Assembly: GCA_951828585.1 (NCBI GenBank)
Contig: OX639991.1
Coordinates: forward strand, 1,520,576-1,584,575
DNA from: Longimicrobiales bacterium
GTDB taxonomy: Bacteria > Gemmatimonadota > Gemmatimonadetes > Longimicrobiales > Gaopeijiaceae
Length of the DNA stretch: 64,000 nucleotides
Direction: 5' to 3'
The position numbers and the translations under genes were made by a program. The notes below the pieces were generated by a model. That model saw only the letters and a program-made list of their open reading frames with translations, did no database searches and had not been told where the DNA came from. Positions 9,139 to 24,983 of the stretch are shown in pieces; position 1 is the first letter of the stretch; the number at the start of each line of letters is the position of its first letter.

Positions 9139-10335
9139 TCAACGCCACCCGACCAGCCGGCGCAACTCCACCGTTTCCACATCCAGCTCGTTGCGGCGCA
9201 GTATGGCCACCACGTCACCGTCCGCCGCGACCACCAATAGATTCTCGGAGCTCGTAACTTCCCCCACTCGCTCGCCCTGCTTCGAATAGAGCGTCCATCT
9301 CTCCCCCGGACTCCCCCAATAGTGGTACTGCTGGACCCAGATCAACCCGTTCAACTCGCGGACGGTACTGTGGTAGGGATAGGACTCGGGACGCTCCCAG
9401 TCCTCGACCCCGTCCAACTCCCGAAAGAGATCACGGTCCTTACGTGTCACCGCTCTCGGTTCCGGGCTGGCGCCGGACCCCAGCTCGCGGACGAGTTCTC
9501 CCCTCCGGTCGAAGACGGGGATCGCGAATTCCATGTTGTCCCGGATGTAGTACTCGTCGCCGAGGACCCCTGAAGAAGCCTCTAGGCGGAACGGTCCCGG
9601 CCACCGGGTCGTCCCCGCGCCCCCTCGTCCGTAGGGCACCACGAGGCCTTCACCGCCGAGGTAGTGGCCAAGACTATCCACGAAATGGCCGGTGCTGTCA
9701 TACCGGGCCAGGATCCAGGGAATTCGCCTGACCGTGGCGGCCTCAACTCCCACGGGTGTCTGAAGCGAGGAGGCGACAAGCATCGAGCCGTCGGTGAAGA
9801 CACCTTGAACATCCGGGTAGGGATACCCTCCCCAAGGTTGAATGGTGACTGTCTTCTCCACGACGCCGGCCAGGTCGAGGACGGTTAGTCGACGATTCAC
9901 GAAGTCGAAGGTGTATAGCCTGTTTCCGACTGCCTGCGATGAGCCGAGGACCTGGTATTCCCCCGGGCCTTCTCCCTCCCCGCCGGTCGTTCGGAGCAGT
10001 TCGCCCGTGGCCCGATCGTAGTAGCGTAGCGTCTTCGAACTCCACTCCGCCACGATCAGCGCATCCCCCGCCAGCGCCACGCCAGTCACCCGGAAGAGGG
10101 CATCTTCCGGCGTGTTGCCGATCGTCAGCAGGGGCTCGCTGTCGATCCTTGCGACGATCTGCGCCGTCTCCGGCGGCGGACCGCGCTGGGCACCACCCAG
10201 GTCGTCAGCCGCACATAACACGGGGGACAGGATGAGCGCGACCGCGGTGACCGGCACCGGCACGCGAAGAAAATTGGAGATGGCCGCCGATGGCGAACCC
10301 CGGCCGAACCTCCCCTCAAGACCCCAGAACCCCAT
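9139..10335 (-). CDS. Exported six-bladed beta-propeller protein
   Basis: 398 residues. A basic N-terminus and hydrophobic core (VPVTAVALILSPVLCAA) form a signal peptide. Blades follow: LAGDALIVAEWSSKTLRYYD, the family turn GGEGEGPGEYQVLG, NRLYTFDFVNRRLTVLDL, and a closing blade ENLLVVAADGDVVAILRRNELD. A G-rich ribosome binding site lies just before ATG 10335. The stop overlaps the leader of the thymidine kinase gene, so the two are probably one transcript. No catalytic residues are recognised; a periplasmic binding role is inferred. Confidence 0.8.
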   Translation of the reverse strand: MGFWGLEGRFGRGSPSAAISNFLRVPVPVTAVALILSPVLCAADDLGGAQRGPPPETAQIVARIDSEPLLTIGNTPEDALFRVTGVALAGDALIVAEWSSKTLRYYDRATGELLRTTGGEGEGPGEYQVLGSSQAVGNRLYTFDFVNRRLTVLDLAGVVEKTVTIQPWGGYPYPDVQGVFTDGSMLVASSLQTPVGVEAATVRRIPWILARYDSTGHFVDSLGHYLGGEGLVVPYGRGGAGTTRWPGPFRLEASSGVLGDEYYIRDNMEFAIPVFDRRGELVRELGSGASPEPRAVTRKDRDLFRELDGVEDWERPESYPYHSTVRELNGLIWVQQYHYWGSPGERWTLYSKQGERVGEVTSSENLLVVAADGDVVAILRRNELDVETVELRRLVGWR

Positions 10336-10568
10336 ATCCCCCCTCCAGAATCAGGCGAACAGACACGTACATCCCGAACACCCCGAAGAGTACCCGGATG
10401 GCGTTCAGCACGCCAACGAAAACACACAGTTCGCCCCTGCTGATCCCCCCCGACGTTCGGAGACAGAAACCGCCCAAGTGGCATCCGGCTGGTGAGGAAC
10501 TCGATGGCCGGCGAGGAGTCCGGCCGGCAGCCCGGGATGGTTCACCCGCTCCCCATCATCCGCACCCC

Positions 10569-11711
10569 TCACCGACCCTCACGGCGCGGGATCGGCGGAT
10601 CCTCAAATCGCCGGCCCCTTCCCTCAACCGGCAGCGTCACCGTTTCCGGCAGCACCACCACGACGTACGGCTGCGGCGTGTAGGGCGACATGTCCAGCTC
10701 CTCGTCATCAAAGTAGGCCAGCCGGTTCGGCGTCGTCCTCGTCATGAGCCAGAGAAGCTGGGCGGACAGCCGTTCCGGCCGGTAGCGGACCGCGAAGTAC
10801 GGAAGAATCGTCTCGGCAACGTCCTCCCGGTCGGGAAAGTCCTGCGCGTAGTCGGAGATGGAGACGCCGTCCGCCTGCTGGGCCGCGCGCCAGCCGGGCG
10901 AGTCCGCATGGTCCGGATCGAGCGAGGCGTGTGCGCCTTCGTGCATGAACACTTCTTCCAGGAACCCGTCGTTGACGGCCCTCCTGGTGCCCGGATCCTC
11001 CGTATGGATCAGGATGCTGCCGTTGTAGGAGTTGCCCCCGAAGGCCCCCTGTCCCGCATTCACCTCCACCTCCTGGAGGTTCGCCAGGAGAGCCGCCGGC
11101 AACCGTCCCATCGCGGGCCCGAAGACTTCGATCTCCGCCTCGGCCGCCTCCGCGCTGCCGAATTCCGGATTGAACTGCCACTCCACCGTCCGTTCGCCGA
11201 ACTGCACGTCGAACAGGTAGGCGTTCACCGTGATCCAGGCGTTGGCCCGCCGGTCGAAGATCTCCCGCATCCCGCGGCCGGTGTGCGTGACGCTGCCGAA
11301 CGACGAGGGGTCGTCGGGGCCGAGGATCTCCGGGGTCACCCATACCGTTCCGCTGAACGGCGGCTCCCCGGTGTGTGCGAGCCCGATATCGAGCGTCTGG
11401 TCGGCACGAACGTCCACTTCGAAGGTCGCTCGCCGGTAGCTGGGTGGGGCGCTGACGGTGATCCCGATCTTCCCCCCGGTGACGCCCGACAGCTGATACT
11501 GCCCGAGTGAATCGGTGTTCGTGGACGCCGACGTTCCCTCTTCCAGCCGCACGGCCGCACCGGGAATCGCCAGCCCCGCCATCCGGCTGTCGGTCACCTT
11601 GCCGGAAAGCGTGAACGACCCCACCACCGCCGGCTCAGTCTCGCCGCAGGAGACGGAGACCAGGCCGGCCATTGCCGCCGATACGGCGATCACGATTGGG
11701 CGACGCGTCAT
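10569..11711 (-). CDS. Lipoprotein with carboxypeptidase-regulatory-like and HExxH domains
   Basis: 380 residues. The lipobox is VSVSC near residue 21. Residues ~30-110 form a carboxypeptidase-regulatory-like beta-sandwich (GSFTLSGKVTDSRMAGLAIPGAAVRLEEG, then DSLGQYQLSGV). The rest has a metallopeptidase look: GFLEEVFMHEGAHASLDPDH carries HEGAH, a zincin HExxH motif, with a following Asp-His pair. A peptidase role is plausible but the family is not recognised. ATG 11711 has a GGAG box nine bases upstream; ATG 11726 has none. It is divergent from the Hsp70 gene across 110 bp. Confidence 0.65.
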   Translation of the reverse strand: MTRRPIVIAVSAAMAGLVSVSCGETEPAVVGSFTLSGKVTDSRMAGLAIPGAAVRLEEGTSASTNTDSLGQYQLSGVTGGKIGITVSAPPSYRRATFEVDVRADQTLDIGLAHTGEPPFSGTVWVTPEILGPDDPSSFGSVTHTGRGMREIFDRRANAWITVNAYLFDVQFGERTVEWQFNPEFGSAEAAEAEIEVFGPAMGRLPAALLANLQEVEVNAGQGAFGGNSYNGSILIHTEDPGTRRAVNDGFLEEVFMHEGAHASLDPDHADSPGWRAAQQADGVSISDYAQDFPDREDVAETILPYFAVRYRPERLSAQLLWLMTRTTPNRLAYFDDEELDMSPYTPQPYVVVVLPETVTLPVEGRGRRFEDPPIPRREGR

Positions 11712-11820
11712 TCCCGTATACTCCATTGAGACACACTCGAACCACTGCGCTACACGCGCAAAAACCTACCGAAGCAGGGCGTTGGACGCACGGACGCGGC
11801 TTTCGCTAGCTTCCTCCACC

Positions 11821-13413
11821 ATGCCAACCCACTGGGCCATCGACCTCGGCACCTCCAACACGACCGTCTGCGAAGACCGGTCCGGCCAGCCGCACGTCGT
11901 GAACCTCCCCGACCTGGCCAAGCTGGAGCCCATCACGCAGACCCCCGTCATGCCTTCGTGCATCTGCGTCATGGACGAGCAGGGCGAGAAGGTCCTGATC
12001 GGGCAGGAGGCCGTCACCTACAACTGGGACGGACGGGCCACGGGTTTCGCGCGCGGTTTCAAGCGCTACCTGGGCATGGAGAGCAGCCGGGCCATGGCGC
12101 GCGTGGGCGGGAGGACCTTCACCGCGCACGACGTCGCGTCGCTCTTCCTGCACGAGGTCGTCCGCAAGCTCGAAGCGCGATTCGACGAAGAGGTCACCGA
12201 CGTCACCATCGCCACGCCGAGCAGCTTCTACGAGACGTACCGGGCTGAACTGCAGGCGATTCTCCGGAGTGTGAAACGCCGCGGCTGGTGGGGACGCATG
12301 TGGGCGCGCCTTCGGGGGAAGCCGGGCGGGATCGTGTTCCGCACCCTCGACGAACCCGTCGCGGCCGCGCTCGGCTACGGGGTCGATGTCGGACGCCCCA
12401 CCACCGTGGTCGCCTTCGATTTCGGCGGCGGATCGATGGAAGCGGCCGTCGTGCGGACCCACGGCGCGCGGACGGTGGAGACCGGCCGGGCCGAGGTGCT
12501 CGCCAAGCAGGCCGTCGAACTGGGCGGGGACGACATCGACCGCTGGATCCTGGAGCGGCTCGTCCCGTCGGCGCTGCACGACTGGCCTGAATGGGAGGTC
12601 GCGCTCCGGTGGGAGGCCGAGCGCGTGAAGCTGCTCGCGAGCGCCGGGAGCGAGGGCGACTTCACCTTCCGCAATGAATCGTACGGGAGACTGGACTACC
12701 CCGTCCTACGCGACCTTCTCGCCGAAAACGGCCTCTATGCGCGCATCCGGGAGCTCCTGGACGACACGCTCACCGAACTGCGGACACGGCACGGCGTCCC
12801 CCCGCACGCGGTCGACGATGTGATCCTCGAAGGCGGTTCCACCCTCCTTCCCGAAGTGCGCAACGTCGTGGGCGACGTGCTCGGCCGCGACAAGGTGCGT
12901 GAGTGGCTTCCCTTCGCGGCCGTCGCGCGCGGCGCCTGCATCTTCGCAGGTGGCGCGCACGTCGAGGACTTCATCTACCACGACTACGCGATTCGGCTTC
13001 TGCCCGACGACGACAAGGGGGCCGAGTACGAACTCCTCATCCCCGGCGGGACGCGGTTCCCCACGATCGACAACTTCGTGACGCGCTACTATGCGCCCGG
13101 CTTCGACGGCCAGCGGCACATCAACCTCTTCATCTGCGAGGTCGGGCGCGTGGCCGGGCGTCCGGTCGACTGGACCGAGCGACCCAACGGTACCCGCTAT
13201 TTCGTGCCCGGGACCGAGGGCGAACGGGCGTTTTGCCTGTGCCTCAACGAGGCGGACCCGGCACTGCCGCTGAATCCGGTCGGCAGGGGAACCGCGCCCC
13301 GGCTGCGCGTGACCTATTCGGTTGACGAAAACCGCTGGCTGTGCGTAACGGTACATGACCTGCACCGGAAGACCGACCTGAGGGTCAAACACCCCGTGGT
13401 GCGATTGCGATGA
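11821..13413 (+). CDS. Hsp70-family (DnaK-like) ATPase
   Basis: 530 residues. The N-terminal phosphate loop (WAIDLGTSNTTVCED), the second phosphate motif (VVAFDFGGGSMEAAVV) and the adenosine motif (VILEGGSTLLPEV) identify an actin/Hsp70-fold ATPase. A beta-rich C-terminal part (from about residue 390) replaces the substrate-binding region of DnaK, and no helical lid or EEVD tail is seen. Unlike DnaK, a basic insert (VKRRGWWGRMWARLRGKPGG) lies in the ATPase domain. No DnaJ or GrpE is adjacent. Its stop overlaps the ATG of a 20-codon mini-ORF that leads into the HEAT-repeat gene, so the partner at 13469 is the best guess for a functional complex. Confidence 0.85.
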   Translation: MPTHWAIDLGTSNTTVCEDRSGQPHVVNLPDLAKLEPITQTPVMPSCICVMDEQGEKVLIGQEAVTYNWDGRATGFARGFKRYLGMESSRAMARVGGRTFTAHDVASLFLHEVVRKLEARFDEEVTDVTIATPSSFYETYRAELQAILRSVKRRGWWGRMWARLRGKPGGIVFRTLDEPVAAALGYGVDVGRPTTVVAFDFGGGSMEAAVVRTHGARTVETGRAEVLAKQAVELGGDDIDRWILERLVPSALHDWPEWEVALRWEAERVKLLASAGSEGDFTFRNESYGRLDYPVLRDLLAENGLYARIRELLDDTLTELRTRHGVPPHAVDDVILEGGSTLLPEVRNVVGDVLGRDKVREWLPFAAVARGACIFAGGAHVEDFIYHDYAIRLLPDDDKGAEYELLIPGGTRFPTIDNFVTRYYAPGFDGQRHINLFICEVGRVAGRPVDWTERPNGTRYFVPGTEGERAFCLCLNEADPALPLNPVGRGTAPRLRVTYSVDENRWLCVTVHDLHRKTDLRVKHPVVRLR

Positions 13414-13460
13414 GTGCCGGAGGTGCGATGAGCGCCAGACGTGCGATGAACGCCAGGGAG
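13407..13460 (+). repeat. Three tandem 18-bp units at the Hsp70/HEAT junction
   Basis: Units GCGATGAGTGCCGGAGGT, GCGATGAGCGCCAGACGT and GCGATGAACGCCAGGGAG lie head to tail from the last codons of the Hsp70 gene into the spacer. Each unit supplies an in-frame ATG. They form most of the mini-ORF described separately. Confidence 0.75.
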
Positions 13461-13472
13461 TCCGCTGAATGA
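13410..13472 (+). CDS. 20-codon mini-ORF coupling Hsp70 and HEAT-repeat genes
   Basis: ATG 13410 overlaps the Hsp70 stop (ATGA) and the mini-ORF stop TGA 13470-13472 overlaps the ATG of the next gene (again ATGA). The peptide would be MSAGGAMSARRAMNARESAE, a hexapeptide repeated three times with three internal methionines. The simplest reading is a translational relay: ribosomes ending Hsp70 re-initiate here and are delivered to the HEAT-repeat start. A functional peptide is possible but not supported. Seen directly in the sequence; the role is inference. Confidence 0.4.
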   Translation: MSAGGAMSARRAMNARESAE

Positions 13473-14767
13473 GCCCGCTGAAATCCCTCTTCGGGCCGAG
13501 CCAGGAGGAGATCTGGCGGAAGCTGTCCCGCGAAGTGGGCGGGCGATTCCGCGAAGGAGGGATCCTCAGTTCACACGCCGTCCAGGCCCGTACCGAAGAC
13601 TGGCTCATCACGCTAGACACGTACGCAGTGAGCACCGGCACGGCAAGCCAGATCTACACACGGCTCCGCGCTCCCTATTTCAACCCGGAGGGCTTCAGGT
13701 TCGAAATCTATCGGTCAGGCTTCTTCACGGAGCTGTGGAAGGGGATGGGGATGCAGGATATCGAGGTCGGCCATACCCGTTTTGATCGGGACTTCGTGAT
13801 CAAGGGCAATGCGCCCGGGCGGATACGGCGGCTCTTCGACAACGAGAAGATCCGCCGCCTCATCGATGCCCAGCCCAGGATCCACCTGTCCGTCAAGGCG
13901 CACGAGGGGGTTTTCAGCAAGTTTCCCGCCGGGGTGGACGAACTCCACTCCCAGTCGGCCGGGACCATCAAGGACCTGGCGCAGCTCCGCATGCTCTTCG
14001 ATCTCTTCGCCGAGGTCCTGCAACAGGTTTGCCACGAGGGGAAAGCGTACGAGGACGATGTCCGGATCCACATGCGGCGGCTGCGCGCGCCCGGGGGGCA
14101 GATCAGGGACAGGCATGTGATCTGGGAGGGGGACGAGCCGCGCCGCGATGCAGCCACCGCGCTTGGACGGCTGGGGGATCCCGCAGCCGGTCGCGCCCTT
14201 ACCTCTGTTCTCCAGGACAAGGACACCGTGCTCATTGCGCGGGCGATCGAGGCACTCGCCCGGATCGGTGACGCGCGGGCGATCGGTCCACTCGTCCGCA
14301 AACTCGGCGACATCAAGGCGGCCGACGACGGCCGGTCCATCCGCGATCATGTCGCCGATGCGTTGAGGCAGCTGGGCGAAGGGGACCTGGTCGACGCCGT
14401 GCTGGTGGCGCTGGACGGCGACTTCGCACGTCTCAAGGCGTACGATGGCGAATACAGGGAGGAGATCATCGAGGCGCTCACCGACGCGATCCGCTGGCGC
14501 TCCGCCACGCACCCGGCGAACGCGCTCGCCGAAATCCACGCCGTGGAAGCGCTGCCACGACTCCGTAAGATCCTGACGAACTTCGGTGGGCGGAACCCCA
14601 CCGGTCACGCGGTCGCGGACGTGATCAGGAAGCTCGAGTCACGGGCCTCGCTTCCACGAGCCGCCACGGCGCCCGATGCCCAGGTGGACACGCTGCCACG
14701 TGCGGCGCGGGAGCCGGGGCCGGATACCCGGACACTGCCGCGCGGTTCACGGGGACCGGGCGAATAG
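13469..14767 (+). CDS. HEAT-repeat protein, partner of the Hsp70 gene
   Basis: 432 residues in three parts. Residues 1-210 resemble the DUF3137-type soluble domain (ending its core with FDRDFVIKGNAPGRIRRLFDNEKIR). Residues ~220-390 hold HEAT-like helical repeats, for example RRDAATALGRLGDPAAGRALTSVLQDKD and ARAIEALARIGDARAIGPLVRKLGD. The tail is low-complexity with repeated TLPR. No signal peptide, so cytoplasmic. It follows Hsp70 through a coupled mini-ORF and is expected to be co-translated with it. It may act as a scaffold or client adaptor; no enzyme motif is seen. Confidence 0.7.
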   Translation: MSPLKSLFGPSQEEIWRKLSREVGGRFREGGILSSHAVQARTEDWLITLDTYAVSTGTASQIYTRLRAPYFNPEGFRFEIYRSGFFTELWKGMGMQDIEVGHTRFDRDFVIKGNAPGRIRRLFDNEKIRRLIDAQPRIHLSVKAHEGVFSKFPAGVDELHSQSAGTIKDLAQLRMLFDLFAEVLQQVCHEGKAYEDDVRIHMRRLRAPGGQIRDRHVIWEGDEPRRDAATALGRLGDPAAGRALTSVLQDKDTVLIARAIEALARIGDARAIGPLVRKLGDIKAADDGRSIRDHVADALRQLGEGDLVDAVLVALDGDFARLKAYDGEYREEIIEALTDAIRWRSATHPANALAEIHAVEALPRLRKILTNFGGRNPTGHAVADVIRKLESRASLPRAATAPDAQVDTLPRAAREPGPDTRTLPRGSRGPGE

Positions 14768-16698: not shown

Positions 16699-16804
16699 GG
16701 GACACGGTTGCTCCGGGATACCGGCAACCAGATATTCGTCAGCGGCAATGTCGCGGGCGGGTGGCAGCGGGCACGATACTTCAGACCCAGGCCGACACGG
16801 CAAG

Positions 16805-19800
16805 ATGGCGTCCAGCGAAAGAAACCACTCGGAGAAACCCGGCCCCATCGCCTACATGGCGAGCAACAGCGTCGCCGCCAACCTGCTCATGGTCGGGATC
16901 CTCGTCGCGGGAGTGGCGTCGTTCTTCGGGCTCGAACTGCAAGCATGGCCCACGGTGCCCTTCAACCAGGTCGAGGTCTCCGTCGCCTATCCGGGCGCCA
17001 CCCCCGAGGAGGTGGAGGAGGCCATCGTCGCCAAGATCGAGGACGAGGTCGAAGGGCTGGGCAACGTGAAGGCGGTGAAGTCCGTGGCGGCCCCGGGCAT
17101 GGCGTCGGTCAGGGTGGAAATGCGGTCGGGCACGGACATGAACGACGCGCTGGCCGATGTCGAGGCGGCGGTCGGGCGGATTCAGACGTTTCCGGGCGAA
17201 GCCGAACGTCCCCAGATCAGGGAGATGACCAACGCGCAGAGCGTGATGCGCCTGATCGTGTACGGCGGTGTCAGCGAGCGCGCATTGAAGGAGTTGGCAT
17301 ACCGCGTCGAGGACGAGCTCGCCGCGCTGCCCTCCGTCTCCCAGGTCGAGACCAGCGGGATCCGCAACTACGAGATCTCGATCGAGATGCCCCTGCAGCG
17401 GTTGAGAGCGCTCGGGCTCACCCTGACCGATGTCGCCAACACGATTCGCCGCAGCTCCCTCGACCTTTCCGCCGGCAGCATCGACACGGAGCAGTCCCAG
17501 GTTCGGGTGCGCACCCTGGGGCAGAGCTACGACCAGCAGGACTTCGAGGAAATCGTCCTCCTCAGCCGCGGTGACGGCACGGTTGTTCGCGTGGGCGATA
17601 TCGCCGAGGTGCGCGACGGATTCCAGGACACGGATCTGATCGTGCGGCACCAGAATCTGCCGGCGGTCTTCGTCGAGGTCTCGCGCGCCGACGGCGAGAA
17701 GGTGATGAATGTGGCGCGCGCCGTTCGCGAGCACGTCGCCGACGAGGTCGCCCCCTCGCTCCCGGACGGCGTGGGCATCACCATCTGGAACGACGAATCC
17801 GATGCGTTCGAGGAGCGCGCCCTCATCCTCCTCAAGAACGGTCTCATCGGGCTCCTGCTGGTGCTGTTCGCCCTGGGACTGTTTCTCGAACTCCGGCTCG
17901 CCTTCTGGGTAGCCGTCGGTCTAGGGATTTCGGGGATCGGGGCCCTGGCCGTCATGATGGCCTTCGACATGGCGATCCACGCGGTTTCCCTATTCTCGTT
18001 CGTCCTCGCCATCGGGATCGTGGTGGACGATGCGATTGTCGTCTCCGAGCACATCCACCTGGAGCGCATGAAGGGCACGCCGGGCGTCGTCGCGGCGATC
18101 CGGGGAGCACGGCGAATCAAGGTGCCCCTGATCTTTGCGGTGCTGACAACGGTTGCCGCCTTCGCCCCTCTGCTCTTCATTCCCGGAGGGGTCGGACAGA
18201 CCTGGAAGGCGCTGCCGACCATCGTCATCGCGATGTTGGTCATTTCGCTGATCGAGTCGCTGCTGGTTCTTCCCAACCACCTGTCCCACCATCTCCACGG
18301 GCCGAACTGGGCACCCCGAACGCGCCCCGGGATCCTCGTTGCCCGGGTTCAGGGCCGCGTCGATTCGCTGTTGAGCACATTCGTGCAGGGTCCCCTGCAT
18401 CGCGCCGTGACGTTCGCGACCGACCGGCCCGGACTCACGCTCTCGTCGGCCGTCGCGCTTCTCATCCTCTGCGGTGCGATGTTGCCGGCCGGCATCGTGT
18501 CGTTCACCCTTGCCACGGAGGTCGAAGGGGATTTCGCGACCGCCACCCTGGAGATGCCGGACGGCACGACGGCTCAGCGGACCTACGAGGTGGCCCGGGA
18601 ACTGGAGGCGGCCGGCCACCGGGCCATCGCACGCATCTCCGAAGACCGGCCCGCCGATGCGCCTCCCCTGCTCTCGGGCGTCACGATCACCGTCGGACAG
18701 CGGCCGCGGATCGAGGGAGGAGGACTCAGTCCCAACCCCAACCTGAACCCGGAAGCCAACGTCGCCACCATCGCGTTCAAGCTCCTGGACGCGGAGCACC
18801 GGCGGATTGAAACGGGAGACGTCGCGCAGGCGTGGCGCGAGGAGGTGGGTGTCCTGCCCCATGTGCGCGCGATCACCATCAGCGGCAAGCTCTACGACCT
18901 GGGCAACCCCGTCGAGGCGGTGCTGTCGCATCGGGATCCGGAGCGCCTTCCCGGGATCGCGACCTCGGTCGTCAACGGCCTCCGCGAAGTCGGAGGCATC
19001 CACGACATTCGCTCCGATGTTACCCCCGGCATCCCGGAGATCCAGCTCGGCCTGCTGCCCGAGGCGCGCACCATGGGTCTCACCCTCGACGACCTGGCCG
19101 GGCAGACGCGGGCCGCGTTCTTCGGCGCGGAAGCCCTGCGGGTGCAGCGGGGCCGGGAAGAGGTGCGCGTGTACGTGCGGCTGCCCGAGGATCAGCGCAA
19201 CTCGATCACCGACATCGAGAGATCCCTGGTCCGGACTCCGGCCGGCGCCGAGGTCCCGGTAAGTCGGGTGGCTTACCTGAGCTCGGGCAGGTCGCCGACC
19301 GCCATCCATCGCCAGGACGGCCAGCGCGTGGTGAGGGTCAGCGCGGATGTGGATGCGGCCGTGATTTCCGGCGGGCAGGCCAACGGAATCCTGGAAGACG
19401 ACATCCTCGCGGCGCTTGTCGCCGAGGACCCTGACCTGACCTACTCCTTCGGAGGCGAACAACAGCAGCAGCTGGAATCCATGAACGCGCTGGGGCCCGG
19501 GTTGGGGATCGCCCTGATCCTGATCTTTTCGCTGCTGGCCATCCCGCTGCGCTCCTACACCAAGCCGCTCATCATCATGGCCGTCATCCCGTTCGGGTTG
19601 ATCGGTGTGATCCTGGGCCACTGGGTCCTGGGCGTCGCCCTGAGTTCGGAGTCGTTTATCGGATTCTTCGGGCTGGCCGGCGTGGTGGTGAACGATTCCC
19701 TGGTCATGACGGACTTCATCGATCAGGAACTCGAGGAAGGCCTCCCGCCGCGGCAGGCGATCATCGAGGGCGCCAAGGGGCGTTTCCGTCCGATCATGCT

Positions 19801-20035
19801 CACTTCCCTGACCACCTTCCTGGGCTTCACGCCGCTCATCCTCGAAGACGCCATTCAGGCGCAGTTCTTCGTGCCCTTCTCCGCCTCGGTCGGCTGCGGC
19901 ATCCTCTTCACCACCGCCATGCTGATGTTCCTGGTGCCCGCGCTGTCCTCGCTCCGACTGAGGTGGATTGTCCGGCACAGCGGGTCACGTGGCCGGGCCG
20001 ACGTCGGTCAGGCGCTCAGCCCCGCGCCTTCCTGA
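16805..20035 (+). CDS. RND efflux permease (HAE1-type)
   Basis: 1076 residues. One helix near residue 20-40 (ANLLMVGILVAGVASFFGL) is followed by the first periplasmic porter domain, a block of helices (GLIGLLLVLFALGLFLEL and on), the proton-relay region AIGIVVDDAIVVSEH in helix 4, the second porter domain and the C-terminal helix block ending near ALSSLRLRW. This is a trimeric inner-membrane proton/drug antiporter. No periplasmic adaptor or TolC gene is beside it, so partners must be elsewhere. ATG 16805 is chosen because the upstream in-frame codons are unlike the family. Its 3' end overlaps the FAD oxidoreductase by about 20 bp, tail to tail. Confidence 0.9.
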   Translation: MASSERNHSEKPGPIAYMASNSVAANLLMVGILVAGVASFFGLELQAWPTVPFNQVEVSVAYPGATPEEVEEAIVAKIEDEVEGLGNVKAVKSVAAPGMASVRVEMRSGTDMNDALADVEAAVGRIQTFPGEAERPQIREMTNAQSVMRLIVYGGVSERALKELAYRVEDELAALPSVSQVETSGIRNYEISIEMPLQRLRALGLTLTDVANTIRRSSLDLSAGSIDTEQSQVRVRTLGQSYDQQDFEEIVLLSRGDGTVVRVGDIAEVRDGFQDTDLIVRHQNLPAVFVEVSRADGEKVMNVARAVREHVADEVAPSLPDGVGITIWNDESDAFEERALILLKNGLIGLLLVLFALGLFLELRLAFWVAVGLGISGIGALAVMMAFDMAIHAVSLFSFVLAIGIVVDDAIVVSEHIHLERMKGTPGVVAAIRGARRIKVPLIFAVLTTVAAFAPLLFIPGGVGQTWKALPTIVIAMLVISLIESLLVLPNHLSHHLHGPNWAPRTRPGILVARVQGRVDSLLSTFVQGPLHRAVTFATDRPGLTLSSAVALLILCGAMLPAGIVSFTLATEVEGDFATATLEMPDGTTAQRTYEVARELEAAGHRAIARISEDRPADAPPLLSGVTITVGQRPRIEGGGLSPNPNLNPEANVATIAFKLLDAEHRRIETGDVAQAWREEVGVLPHVRAITISGKLYDLGNPVEAVLSHRDPERLPGIATSVVNGLREVGGIHDIRSDVTPGIPEIQLGLLPEARTMGLTLDDLAGQTRAAFFGAEALRVQRGREEVRVYVRLPEDQRNSITDIERSLVRTPAGAEVPVSRVAYLSSGRSPTAIHRQDGQRVVRVSADVDAAVISGGQANGILEDDILAALVAEDPDLTYSFGGEQQQQLESMNALGPGLGIALILIFSLLAIPLRSYTKPLIIMAVIPFGLIGVILGHWVLGVALSSESFIGFFGLAGVVVNDSLVMTDFIDQELEEGLPPRQAIIEGAKGRFRPIMLTSLTTFLGFTPLILEDAIQAQFFVPFSASVGCGILFTTAMLMFLVPALSSLRLRWIVRHSGSRGRADVGQALSPAPS

Positions 20036-21380
20036 ACCGCCAGCCGTGCAGGATGCTCCCGTAGTGGTTGAATGACCGGCGCGCCTCCGCGTCGTCAAAG
20101 GGGTAGTCCGCACCGAGCTGTCTCGCGGCAGCGAGCCCGGTGACGAAACAGGTTTCCTGGCTGTTGATCAGCGTGTGGGCGCCGCAATGCCACGTGCGCC
20201 TGCGGCCCTGAAGGAGGCGGAACAGGGGGACGAGGAGTGCAACCTGGCGAACGTCGTGGACCACATGCTGGAACCACCATCTGAAGACGATCTTCCGTTC
20301 GTCGATCGGGCTGACCGGGTTGTAGGTCACCAGGCAGGGCTTGTCGGACCGGCCGGCCCACGGCTGCTGGTTGTGCATGATGTAGGTGATCTCGTAGTTG
20401 TCCGGTCTGGCGCCGTACTGCTCGATGTGATTGCTGCGCGTCGTCAGGGCCTTCACGTCGCTGTCGGGAAGCACCGACGCGTCGGAGTGGACGATCGCGT
20501 GGTTGTGGAGTTCGCTCTCGTAGCGCACCGACGAGAGGGTGTAGCGCTCCAGCATCGAGGGTTCGTCGAGGATCATCAGCGTCTGGTTCGCGTTGCAGGC
20601 GAAGATCACCTGGTCGAAGGTCTCCTTCACGCCGTCCTCGTCCTCGACTACGACATGGGACGACCGGCGGTACACCTTTCGGACGGGCCGGTTGAGGTGG
20701 ATCCTGTCCCGGAAACCGGCGGACAGGTTCTCGTAGATGCGCCGTGTTCCCTGGTCCCAGGTCTGCATGGGCGTGGCGGACTCGATGTCGAAGAACTCGA
20801 GATACCGCGAAAAGAAGGACGCGGGCATGTCGAACACGTTGGTCGCCATCAGGAAGTTGACGAACATGGGCTTGAGCACCTGGTACCTGAAGTCCCCGGA
20901 AAGGCTGGCCAGGTTCAGGACCGTCCCCATGCTGATGTAGTTGAACGGATTCAGCGCGTTCAGGAACTTCGACCGGGAACGGGTCAGCCAGCCGAACCGG
21001 TGCAGGCGTCTCAGAATTCGTTGGAACTTTGCGATCTCCGATTGCAGCTGGTCCCGGATGTCGGAGTCGAAATCATGCGCATAGACGCGGCCGCGATACT
21101 TCACGCTGTAGCTAAATCGGGTGTCGACCAGGTCGATGCCGAACCGCTCCATCAATATCACGATGTGGTGATACACCGACGGAATGCAGGCCGTGACCGA
21201 AATGTCGAAGGGGATCGAGCCGCCCCCGTCCTGCGGCATGTCGGCCGTGACGGCATTTCCCCCGATCCGGTCCCGGGCCTCGAAGAGGTGGAAATCGAAC
21301 CGGTCGGGGTGGTGATTCAGCGCCCAGGCGGCCCCCAATCCCGATATCCCTCCGCCGACGATGGCTATCCGCTGCGGCAT
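20016..21380 (-). CDS. FAD-dependent amine-oxidase-like oxidoreductase (COG2907 type)
   Basis: 454 residues. The N-terminal Rossmann motif RIAIVGGGISGLGAAWAL and the following acidic residue and DRIGGNAV bind FAD. FDQVIFACNANQTLMIL is the second FAD-contact region usual in this family, and the C-terminal segment with FVTGLAAARQLG closes the FAD site. Such proteins are predicted oxidases or desaturases often found near lipid-modifying enzymes. It follows the P450 gene by 52 bp and probably shares its transcript. No signal peptide. Confidence 0.8.
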   Translation of the reverse strand: MPQRIAIVGGGISGLGAAWALNHHPDRFDFHLFEARDRIGGNAVTADMPQDGGGSIPFDISVTACIPSVYHHIVILMERFGIDLVDTRFSYSVKYRGRVYAHDFDSDIRDQLQSEIAKFQRILRRLHRFGWLTRSRSKFLNALNPFNYISMGTVLNLASLSGDFRYQVLKPMFVNFLMATNVFDMPASFFSRYLEFFDIESATPMQTWDQGTRRIYENLSAGFRDRIHLNRPVRKVYRRSSHVVVEDEDGVKETFDQVIFACNANQTLMILDEPSMLERYTLSSVRYESELHNHAIVHSDASVLPDSDVKALTTRSNHIEQYGARPDNYEITYIMHNQQPWAGRSDKPCLVTYNPVSPIDERKIVFRWWFQHVVHDVRQVALLVPLFRLLQGRRRTWHCGAHTLINSQETCFVTGLAAARQLGADYPFDDAEARRSFNHYGSILHGWRFRKARG

Positions 21381-21432
21381 GAGTCGCTTCTTCCGCCGAT
21401 CCCCAGCCGTGGTTCAGAAAAGTCCCGGTGCG

Positions 21433-23508
21433 TCAGACCGGCAACTCGCGGACCTGCTCGGCGACGCGAAACTTCAGCTTTTTGCTCGGCTTCATCGACG
21501 GGACCGGGCTGATGCGGTGTTTGTAGTTCCTCGGAAATACTTCGAGCGTGAAGTAATGCGCGACCATGAGGACGTTAATCATCAGCTGCAGTTCCATCCA
21601 GCGGAATCCGAGACACCGGTGCGTGCCCAACCCGTACGGCGCGTACCCGGGACCGCGGTGCTCATGGCGCGGCGCCAGATAGCGGTCGATATCGAACTCG
21701 AAGGGCTCCGGGAAGATGTCTTCCATGTAGTGCGGGGCTGTCTGGGCAATGGTGAGCCGCGCCCCGACCGGCAGTTCGTAGCCCTCCACCACACACGAAT
21801 TCATCACGTTTCGTATGGACGCCGGCACGATCGGATACATGCGCAGGCACTCGGTCACAAAGCGGTGGGTGACGTCTACCGCGGCCGGGGTGAAGGCCTC
21901 GCCATCGGGATCTCCGTTGGCGAACAGAGCATCGGCTTCACTCCGGATCCTGGCGTAGAAATCGGGCTGCGACGCCATGGCGTACACCACGAAGCTGAAC
22001 GCGTCACCAAGATACACGCTGGCGATCAGCGCCGCCGACAGGGCGAAACGCAGGTTCGATTCCGGCACCAACTGCGGATCACTGGCATTGAGGCTGAACA
22101 GATCATCCGCCAGGTTCCGCGGGCAGCCGGCCCGCTGCGCGGGTGTATAGACGCCCTGGACACGGGCGATAAGCGTGTCGATTGCCTTCGAGGTGCGCTT
22201 CATTGCCGGGGTCCTCATCGCGAATCCCGGCAGGAGTTTCATGATATGGACCGTGAGCGCCCGTTCCTTGTACGCCATCAGGTCATCGAAGATATCCTGC
22301 GAATCGACGCTGACGGAGAGGGGCGAGATCTGACAGTTGATCATGCGTCGGCACATGTATCGCGCCTGAAAGGAGTCGCCGACCTTCCAACCGGCCATGA
22401 ATCCGCGGGCATGACGGTAGAGATCATCCACCTGGCCTTGCAGCCTCCTTCGTGAATACGCCGGCGCCATGGCCTTGCGGAGCCGGAAATGGTCGGCGCC
22501 ATCGAGGGCAGGCAGGACTCCGGACGCACCGTAGACCTTCTCGAAGTCGGCGAAGTAGTCCCTGGCCCTGAGGTACATGCGCCCGTGACGGTTTGCCCAG
22601 TGGTTGATCTGTGGTCCGGCAAGGAAGATCATGGGTGGTGCGAACGGCACGCCGAGTCTGTACACGGGGCCATGTTTCCCCGCCAGGTCGGCAAAGAGTG
22701 CGGGGAGGTTGCCATCTCGCACGTGGGGGCTGCGCAGCAGTTCACGCAGTCCGACGACCGGGATTCGCTTGGTGAGGCTGGAGTGCCGGAGCAACGGTGC
22801 GGTGGCGTTGTGCATGACCGCCTCGCCTATGGAACGGCCGATCAGGTCCATCCGGCAGAGGAACTCGATGCGCCTTTCCGCCTCGCCATCGAGTTTGAAC
22901 ATGAACCGAAAGACATCGCACGTATTGATGAGACAGATGATGATGACATCTCTCGGATTCGGAATCGTGTCGGCGAAGATCAGGTTGCTGATACGCGTCC
23001 TGATAAATTGGCCGGGAGTGGCTTCCTGGGGTCTGCTGTACGGATCAGCCTGCCAGGCGGTGCGAGCCAGCGTCCAGTACTCGCCGTCGTGGTGTTCCAC
23101 GATCTTCAGGTCCACCAGGCGGTCCAGGGTCAGGTCGATGACCGTCTCCGCGCGAAGGGCGAGTCGTTCGATCCAGTACCGGGCGTTCCGTTGGCGGGGT
23201 TCGTTGGCGACCGCCTTCAGAATGGGGTCCAGGGCGGGGTCGCTGGTTTCCGCAGCGTCAACCAGGAATAGCGAATCCAGGTCCGTGTCGATCCGCCCCA
23301 GCAGCGACAGTTCCGCGAGTACCGCCCCGATGACGGCGCAGTTCAGTTGCCAGCCGGGCACCTGGTAGAAGTAGCCGTTCTCCTCGTTGAGCAGCATCAG
23401 AATAAGCTCCTCGGGGAGAGTCAGCGACTGGGTCGCGGGCTCCGCTGGAGCAACGGTCGCGGTAGTCACCAGCCGTAGCCTCCGCGCGTCGTCGTGAGAC
23501 GACAGCAT
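21433..23508 (-). CDS. GOLPH3-domain / cytochrome P450 fusion
   Basis: 691 residues from ATG 23508. Residues ~25-150 look like a GOLPH3/GPP34 domain (LTLPEELILMLLNEENG, AELSLLGRID), a fold that binds phosphoinositides in eukaryotes. A linker follows, then a cytochrome P450: ECLRMYP holds the ExxR pair, and YGLGTHRCLGFR holds the heme-ligand Cys near residue 632 (the usual Phe is Tyr). The I-helix segment SVYLGDAFSFVVYA lacks the usual acid-alcohol pair, so oxygen activation may be unusual. It lies between a Rieske oxygenase and an FAD oxidoreductase on the same strand. A membrane-associated lipid or terpenoid oxidation is inferred. An earlier in-frame start at 23667 is possible. Confidence 0.8.
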   Translation of the reverse strand: MLSSHDDARRLRLVTTATVAPAEPATQSLTLPEELILMLLNEENGYFYQVPGWQLNCAVIGAVLAELSLLGRIDTDLDSLFLVDAAETSDPALDPILKAVANEPRQRNARYWIERLALRAETVIDLTLDRLVDLKIVEHHDGEYWTLARTAWQADPYSRPQEATPGQFIRTRISNLIFADTIPNPRDVIIICLINTCDVFRFMFKLDGEAERRIEFLCRMDLIGRSIGEAVMHNATAPLLRHSSLTKRIPVVGLRELLRSPHVRDGNLPALFADLAGKHGPVYRLGVPFAPPMIFLAGPQINHWANRHGRMYLRARDYFADFEKVYGASGVLPALDGADHFRLRKAMAPAYSRRRLQGQVDDLYRHARGFMAGWKVGDSFQARYMCRRMINCQISPLSVSVDSQDIFDDLMAYKERALTVHIMKLLPGFAMRTPAMKRTSKAIDTLIARVQGVYTPAQRAGCPRNLADDLFSLNASDPQLVPESNLRFALSAALIASVYLGDAFSFVVYAMASQPDFYARIRSEADALFANGDPDGEAFTPAAVDVTHRFVTECLRMYPIVPASIRNVMNSCVVEGYELPVGARLTIAQTAPHYMEDIFPEPFEFDIDRYLAPRHEHRGPGYAPYGLGTHRCLGFRWMELQLMINVLMVAHYFTLEVFPRNYKHRISPVPSMKPSKKLKFRVAEQVRELPV

Positions 23509-23830
23509 CCGGGACCGGGTTCGGATCCAGCCGGTGTGGTTCCGGGTTCTCTGCGGGTCGTCGCGAGTTCTTTCTCTGAACCCGGAAATCTGTATTTCAT
23601 AAGGGGATCCAATGGTTGCGGCGCCATTCAGCCAGGTCCCGGTTCCGTGGCTGGCCCGGCTGCCCATTCATCTCCGACGATAGTCCCGGATGGCATTGCT
23701 GGCAATACAGCCGCTACCCGACCCATCGAAGCCGGCACGCTCACCGCCACCGCCATCGGTCATGGGAGAGCAACTCTGTGGGGAATCTCATTTTCGGCTC
23801 TCATCCGCCCGTTGCCGCACGCAGGTCTCC
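23509..23830. other. Non-coding gap between Rieske and P450 genes
   Basis: About 320 bp with no gene recognised on either strand. It may hold a promoter for the P450 gene, reading leftward, but no good -35/-10 pair with 16-18 bp spacing was found. No strong repeat or hairpin was noticed. Confidence 0.4.
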
Positions 23831-24898
23831 TCAGCTGACACGCGATGTCGGCCTGATCTGTGACTGTACCTCAGGATAGAACTGCCGACAATAGAGCCGG
23901 AATTTCCCGATCGGGCCGTCGCTCCTGGACAGCCGGGGCGGGGCCCGATACTGCTTCCGTTCCCAGATCACCACGTCCTGCAAGACAAAGCGCCTCTCTT
24001 CCGAAAGGAAAAAGCGACTCATCAGCCGGTGGCGAAACCTCGTCGGCAGGAACCCCATGCCGGCGAAGAACCGTCCCGGCTTGCGGATTTCCCGTACCTG
24101 GGTGACGAGGGTCAATGCGATCCGCGTGCCGTCGACGGGGGTTGCGAGCACCCACATCCTCGCATTCATCCCGATCGTCTTCTCGTGGATTTCGACGAAC
24201 GAGAAGCCCAGTCCATGAACGTGGACGACTGTGGAAACATCGGACACGATGTCGATCAGGCCCGCAACCCTGCGAACGTTCTTGAAGTCGAAGGAACTCC
24301 TGAGGTATGCGCCGTCGATCAATGCCGCACCGGTCGGCGTCACATCGTCGTATCCGTGCGTGTAGGCCAGGTGTTCCACATCCACGGAGTTTTCCGTCGT
24401 CTCCTGTGGGTGACCCCTAAACCGCAGGGTGGTCGACCGCAACCTGCTCCACTCCCTGCCGGCGGACGGTTCGTCCGGCAGGCGCCACTGCGGTGGCCGT
24501 CCGTTGCTCCCCCACCAGGCGAAGACCATGCCAAGAATCTCCGTGGTCTCGTAGACGGTCAGCTTCGCGGCCTTGGGGGCCGGGGCGTTGGGCGTGGCGA
24601 CGCACTTGCCGGTCGTGTCGAACTGGAACCCGTGAAAGGGGCAGACCAGACAGCCGTCGCGCACCAGGCCCCCGACCGTAGGACCCATGTGCGAGCCCAG
24701 GTGCGGGCAAAACGCGCCCGCCACGCAGACGCGGCCCTCGTCGTCGCACCAGGCGACGATCTCCTGGCCCATCCAGACCTTCTCGATCAGCTTCTGCCGC
24801 AGGAGTTCTTCGCGGTGTGCGACGAAATACCAACCTTCGGGGAACGGCGGCATCTCGTTGAGGATGCTGAGCGTTCGTCTCGTGGTCTTGGTAGACAT
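23831..24898 (-). CDS. Rieske non-heme iron oxygenase
   Basis: 355 residues. The Rieske cluster ligands are C64, H66, C86 and H89 (AFCPHLGSH and CLVCPFHGF). The mononuclear iron site is ENSVDVEHLAYTHG, giving N170, D173, H176 and H181. The layout (Rieske first, iron site at mid-length) fits the sterol/steroid-type subfamily such as KshA and the cholesterol 7-desaturases rather than ring-hydroxylating dioxygenases. It would need a reductase, and none is adjacent, though the FAD protein downstream might serve. The start at 24898 is used because residues 1-20 then match the family; ATG 24940 is upstream and in frame. The promoter is the element at 24984-25023. Confidence 0.8.
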   Translation of the reverse strand: MSTKTTRRTLSILNEMPPFPEGWYFVAHREELLRQKLIEKVWMGQEIVAWCDDEGRVCVAGAFCPHLGSHMGPTVGGLVRDGCLVCPFHGFQFDTTGKCVATPNAPAPKAAKLTVYETTEILGMVFAWWGSNGRPPQWRLPDEPSAGREWSRLRSTTLRFRGHPQETTENSVDVEHLAYTHGYDDVTPTGAALIDGAYLRSSFDFKNVRRVAGLIDIVSDVSTVVHVHGLGFSFVEIHEKTIGMNARMWVLATPVDGTRIALTLVTQVREIRKPGRFFAGMGFLPTRFRHRLMSRFFLSEERRFVLQDVVIWERKQYRAPPRLSRSDGPIGKFRLYCRQFYPEVQSQIRPTSRVS

Positions 24899-24983
24899 CT
24901 CTCGAGGGTGCCTGGCGAGCGGGGGGGCGATTAGCGTCAAGTGTAGACCGCAGGTCCGCTCGATTCAAGGTTGTGGTGCAAAA

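Follow-up and report, generated by a model that had tools for sequence, protein, structure and literature searches.

The locus described here lies in a Longimicrobiales bacterium (Gemmatimonadota; assembly GCA_951828585.1, contig OX639991.1), and all coordinates refer to the stretch of 64,000 nt that was analysed as a whole, hereafter the window. Three adjacent open reading frames (ORFs) are found on its minus strand, coding for a KshA-type Rieske oxygenase, a fusion of a GPP34 domain with a cytochrome P450, and an FAD enzyme of the amine-oxidase superfamily. The features of this trio and of the adjoining transporter gene are as follows.

23831..24940, minus strand: Rieske oxygenase with a KshA-type C-terminal domain, 369 aa (PF00355 and PF19298)
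21433..23469, minus strand: GPP34-P450 fusion (678 aa when started at GTG 23469; the ORF called from an ATG extends to 23667)
22813..23418, minus strand: GPP34 (GOLPH3/Vps74-like) domain of the fusion, residues 18-219 (PF05719, fold)
21475..22767, minus strand: cytochrome P450 domain of the fusion, residues 235-665 (PF00067; ExxR at E540 and R543, Cys loop at C619)
21970..22062, minus strand: P450 I-helix, ALIASVYLGDAFSF, without the acid-alcohol pair (helix at residues 470-500 in the model)
20016..21380, minus strand: FAD-dependent amine-oxidase-superfamily enzyme, LkcE / polyenoic fatty acid isomerase-like, 454 aa (PF01593, PDB matches)
16748..20035, plus strand: AcrB-type RND transporter in convergent orientation to the FAD gene (family representative ACR_tran, 6e-156)

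The gap between the fusion and the FAD gene is 52 bases, and 361 bases lie between the end of the upstream Rieske gene and the corrected start of the fusion. This start is likeliest at GTG 23469, since a GGAGG is located 9 nt upstream and the resulting length of 678 aa is in line with that of the homologues, mostly 674-677 aa. Within the window, GC content is lowest at the trio (61.4% vs. a mean of 65.9% for 2-kb stretches). The 3' ends of the convergent RND and FAD genes share 20 bases (window 20016-20035).

Along the called ORF of the fusion, the GPP34 profile (PF05719) matched residues 84-285 (8.2e-29; 101.5 bits vs. a curated cut-off of 29.1) and the P450 profile (PF00067) residues 301-731 (4.1e-28, 98.8 bits), both in one uninterrupted frame, and many relatives likewise carry a single open frame. 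AlphaFold models were built from the window and locus sequences, with predicted local distance difference test (pLDDT) values of 83.6 for the whole fusion and 84.8 for the GPP34 part alone; the latter was folded separately because a structure search with the whole model returned P450s only. Against the PDB, the GPP34 model retrieved GOLPH3 with a Z of 20.1 (2.8 Å, 196 residues) and Vps74 with 19.1, the next unrelated chain scoring 4.3, so that the predicted structure confirmed the GOLPH3/Vps74 fold of the N-terminal domain. The first-pass annotation of this DNA, made from the sequence alone, had proposed such a fusion, which profile, fold and reading frame now bear out, and had named phosphoinositide binding as a known property of the fold, which was not supported here. 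Human GOLPH3 contacts phosphatidylinositol 4-phosphate (PI4P) through W81, R90, R171 and R174, and in the HMMER alignment these positions are occupied in the fusion by P/G, V, E and I, respectively. Since none of the four contacts is conserved, phosphoinositide binding by the GPP34 domain was rejected, and a GOLPH3-like recognition of PI4P is unsupported. The fusion thus shares with GOLPH3 and Vps74 the fold (Z of 18-20 over about 195 residues) but only about 21% identity and, whereas these two proteins are coat adaptors, its GPP34 domain is joined to an enzyme. Two more GPP34 matches without a P450 match are present in the window's own genome (L001 and L003).

Concerning the P450 part, the ExxR residues (E540, R543) and the heme-ligand cysteine (C619) are invariant over 44 diverse rows of the alignment. 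The I-helix reads ASxYLGD, with little variation, in about 100 relatives of the lineage and contains no acid-alcohol pair, as had already been noticed for the window copy, whereas sister paralogues of the same bacterial family keep GLDTTA; the helix of the lineage is one residue shorter. Because the altered motif is lineage-wide and the ordinary one persists in the sisters, the loss of the pair is, as judged from the alignment, an old change that has been fixed in the lineage. Paralogous GPP34-P450 fusions about 31% identical to the window's, with the ordinary pair retained, were seen at four loci (L034, L037, L040 and L041). When the P450 model was compared with the PDB, CYP46A1, CYP184A1, CYP51, CYP120 and BM3 were near-tied (Z of about 33-36), and the fold therefore does not reveal the substrate.

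The Rieske protein combines PF00355 (4.8e-16, 58.9 bits) with the KshA_C domain PF19298 (3.1e-21, 76.9 bits) and matches the KshA structure 4qdc with 79.5 bits, in agreement with its earlier assignment as a sterol-type oxygenase. A role as SdmA, the 4beta-methylsterol monooxygenase, was rejected (34.8 bits vs. an NCBIfam equivalog cut-off of 600). As for the FAD protein, it carries the Amino_oxidase domain PF01593 (3.6e-18), and the solved structures closest to it are those of LkcE (97.5 bits over residues 3-437) and 2b9w (41 bits), a putative aminooxidase that we take to be the polyenoic fatty acid isomerase of P. acnes.

The fusion, either of the window lineage or of its nearest sister, is carried by 25 of 98 relatives, and among 395 Gemmatimonadota species 45 have a match at E 1e-40 or better, spread over 6 of 138 genera. 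A same-genus genome holds two GPP34-P450 fusions in tandem (L055:8810-10792 and 10891-12909), 42% and 83% identical to that of the window, respectively. No relative covering 80% of the fusion was found among 72,556 plasmids, and spread on plasmids was rejected on these grounds. Across phyla, the analysis was based on the best 80 fusion loci of the genome collection, which are 63-80% identical to the window fusion and span about ten phyla, including Chloroflexota, Pseudomonadota, Gemmatimonadota, Nitrospirota, Acidobacteriota, Latescibacterota and Binatota. Their isolate codes comprise 23 SB06xx, which we take to stand for Ircinia ramosa, 14 RHO, 5 APA, 4 COS, 1 IRC and 5 numbered bins of one series, presumably from Aplysina aerophoba. 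The RHO, COS, IRC and APA codes match sponge hosts of Robbins 2021 (PMC8163846), and about two thirds of the 80 loci bear codes of published sponge-symbiont sets.

Near the fusion, a Rieske gene was found in 59 of these loci, an FAD gene in 49, a sterol methyltransferase (SMT) gene in 47 and ERG24 in 10. Rieske and FAD genes occur together in 44 loci, accompanied by SMT in 29, and at least one of these neighbours is present in 78. An RND gene lies near the fusion in 21 loci and an MMPL gene in 40, with one or the other in 61, and relatives of the window's RND transporter recur beside the fusion in 41 of 117 loci. The SMT neighbours carry the Sterol_MT_C domain (6.5e-17 and 1.2e-22), and the MMPL protein common in Chloroflexi loci bears a sterol-sensing domain (4.9e-11); the proteobacterial loci have a different MMPL together with a LolA-like carrier. 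The surroundings of the GPP34-P450 fusion in four Nitrospira loci include an ERG24-type reductase, an SdmA (414.7 bits), a P450 that takes the CYP51 slot and a fusion of squalene epoxidase with oxidosqualene cyclase (OSC), with an SdmB relative also among the genes nearby. In the epoxidase-cyclase fusion, a single frame of 1135-1220 aa holds both an FAD monooxygenase of the squalene epoxidase type and the OSC (L109:14425-17853; also L079, L082 and L116, all from Nitrospira symbionts). Within the window's genus, an SdmB-like dehydrogenase immediately follows the GPP34-P450 fusion in three relatives, and over the 98 relatives the fusion and SMT co-occur strongly (two-by-two counts 20/5/1/72, p 3e-15). 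The first-pass annotation had named two outcomes that would refute it, a failed GPP34 profile match and the absence of the three-gene set elsewhere, and neither occurred; with shared neighbours at dozens of loci, the arrangement goes far beyond chance. Its suggestion of a membrane lipid or terpenoid substrate gains support from the adjacent SMT, sterol-sensing MMPL and sterol clusters. The connection with sponge symbionts, the transfer between phyla and the sterol methyltransferase had escaped it.

The tree of the fusion gene interleaves phyla, with 21 phylum changes for 11 groups (minimum possible 10, shuffled mean 54.5), and its starred branches force at least six phylum changes for Gemmatimonadota. 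In comparison with the window and across phyla, the FAD protein is 79-84% identical, the fusion 64-74% and RecA, compared in 11 other genomes, 57-67%, except in the genome of locus L099, whose Gammaproteobacteria label appears to be wrong, its RecA being 79% identical to the window's. Since the tree interleaves phyla and the cross-phylum identity of the FAD protein (about 82%) exceeds that of RecA (about 65%), the gene set is shown to move horizontally between phyla; misbinning does not explain the phylum spread, because some fusion copies lie in contigs of 0.8-4 Mb. Pairwise distances correlate with those of the fusion for Rieske (r 0.65), SMT (0.47) and FAD (0.43; Mantel, 0 of 2000 permutations as high), and more weakly between phyla (0.33, 0.33 and 0.17, respectively), so that their joint transfer is only partial. 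One further locus, L153 ('BD2-11'), is ranked among Pseudomonadota and seems mislabelled, its fusion falling among Gemmatimonadota.

Taken together, the three genes probably form the core tailoring functions of a sterol-processing cassette that moves horizontally among sponge-associated bacteria. We infer the sterol substrate and the role of each enzyme from the neighbours and family relatives. Given its fold, the GPP34 domain may dock the P450 on a membrane, by other means than the PI4P residues of GOLPH3, and the P450, lacking the pair used in ordinary O2 activation, would act on a sterol in a non-standard way. Oxidation or desaturation of the sterol nucleus would fall to the KshA-type Rieske enzyme, the FAD enzyme might shift or introduce a double bond via hydride transfer, like its superfamily relatives, SMT would alkylate the side chain in most carriers, and an RND or MMPL pump could transport the product. 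Much more tentatively, and with the odds rather against it, the GPP34-P450 could be a new kind of sterol enzyme, docked on the membrane and of non-standard heme chemistry, which makes sponge-specific sterols with unusual side chains or ring oxidations and is shared across symbiont phyla by gene transfer.

Several observations weigh against the sterol cassette. The trio was seen to have neither a ferredoxin nor a reductase gene beside it, some fusions have no Rieske or FAD gene nearby, and SMT was not seen in the sequence around the fusion in 33 of the 80 loci. Within the genus, the association between fusion and SMT is non-significant (p 0.10), so that shared ancestry explains part of it. In the window genome, moreover, neither SMT nor a squalene or oxidosqualene cyclase was found, and there was no ERG4/ERG24 match. 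De novo synthesis of sterols or hopanoids in this genome was rejected, as no cyclase was found, and any sterol acted on there would be acquired, from the host or from neighbours, since OSC, SMT and ERG24 were not found.

That the search found no triterpene cyclase in the window genome also speaks for an alternative substrate of the trio, a membrane lipid or terpenoid other than a sterol (a fatty acid, a hopanoid, a carotenoid or a terpenoid of the sponge); the nearby sterol genes would then be separate neighbours on the same mobile region. The relation of the FAD protein to 2b9w, the presumed polyenoic fatty acid isomerase, points the same way, as do the P450 fold, about equally close to the fatty-acid P450s CYP184A1 and BM3, and the MMPL neighbours, which resemble HpnN too. 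We nevertheless regard it as unlikely: SMT with its sterol-specific C-terminal domain stands at 47 of the 80 loci, sterol-sensing pumps and sterol clusters adjoin the fusion and, because the window genome yielded no squalene-hopene cyclase, hopanoids would not be made there either.

If host sterols were instead used as a carbon source, the KshA-like Rieske enzyme and the P450 would be the ring and side-chain oxygenases of a catabolic route. Such steps are hallmarks of the 9,10-seco pathway, and the sterol synthesis genes sought were not found in the window genome. However, the TIGR03213 extradiol dioxygenase had no match in the window genome and none over its cut-off in 20 carrier genomes, and 9,10-seco catabolism was rejected for want of a ring-cleavage dioxygenase above that cut-off; the FAD enzyme belongs to the amine-oxidase superfamily and not to the KstD type, and the neighbours (SMT, ERG24, OSC) are biosynthetic, which leaves sterol catabolism quite improbable. 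Finally, the three genes are most improbably unrelated neighbours, with the P450 perhaps a degenerate non-catalytic heme protein serving as a sensor or scaffold. The lost acid-alcohol pair and a gene order and strand that differ between phyla would suit this idea, but ExxR and the heme cysteine are invariant and Rieske and FAD genes recur with the fusion in many phyla, with correlated distances.

The sterol cassette was then set against known systems. According to its main text, Kelly 2022 (PMC9531527) deals with steroid gene clusters (CSGs) and their transfer in Ircinia sponge symbionts. As far as that text goes, these clusters resemble the present loci in their occurrence in sponge symbionts of about ten phyla, in the evidence for horizontal transfer and in the linkage of SMT with ERG24/CYP51/ERG7, and the Nitrospira fusion loci adjoin a matching cluster. 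Unlike in our loci, neither GPP34 nor Rieske is named in the main text, and core CSG genes are lacking beside most of the fusions, that of the window included; of the ERG24-CYP51-ERG7 core, the window genome yielded no cyclase and no ERG24 match. Functional SMTs of symbionts are the subject of Brown 2023 (PMC10070321), the main text of which places SMT beside sterol genes in sponge-symbiont metagenomes, as here, but names no P450, Rieske or Golgi-type gene, and SMT was not found in the window genome. Literature searches that paired GPP34 with P450s, symbionts or sponges yielded nothing relevant. Because GPP34 or Golgi-type and Rieske genes are lacking from the main texts of both papers, the fusion and its set appear to be new and would extend a type of gene cluster already described.

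Two systems of Methylococcus are also related. Its CYP51-ferredoxin fusion is another bacterial P450 with an extra domain and a similar fold (Z 34.6), but here the partner is an N-terminal GPP34 and the I-helix motif differs. The present fusion scored 61.5 bits with the Methylococcus CYP51, but was set aside as a likely CYP51 of the cluster, since a separate P450 fills that slot in the Nitrospira loci. In the SdmA/SdmB C-4 demethylation, SdmA is likewise a Rieske oxygenase of the sterol world, and SdmB has its relative directly after the fusion in the three congeners mentioned above, whereas the Rieske oxygenase of the window is distinct from SdmA, of which a close homologue stands alongside the fusion in Nitrospira loci.

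To the question of who makes the odd sterols of sponges, some of which serve as the oldest animal biomarkers, a recurring and transferable enzyme set tied to SMTs in symbionts of about ten phyla contributes concrete, testable genes. If the sponge-specific sterol reading were true, bacteria could account for part of the biomarker record of sponge sterols. A GOLPH3-type domain serving as a P450 membrane anchor would also put to new use a fold that is familiar chiefly from trafficking at the Golgi.

Among the other genes of the window, an Hsp70-like protein (632 aa) is followed by a HEAT-repeat protein (11515-14767), and an Hsp70-like gene is likewise found near the fusion at locus L070 (985-2571). 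At locus L063, a protein with a Spondin_N domain, which is eukaryote-like, is encoded directly after the fusion (9589-10617).

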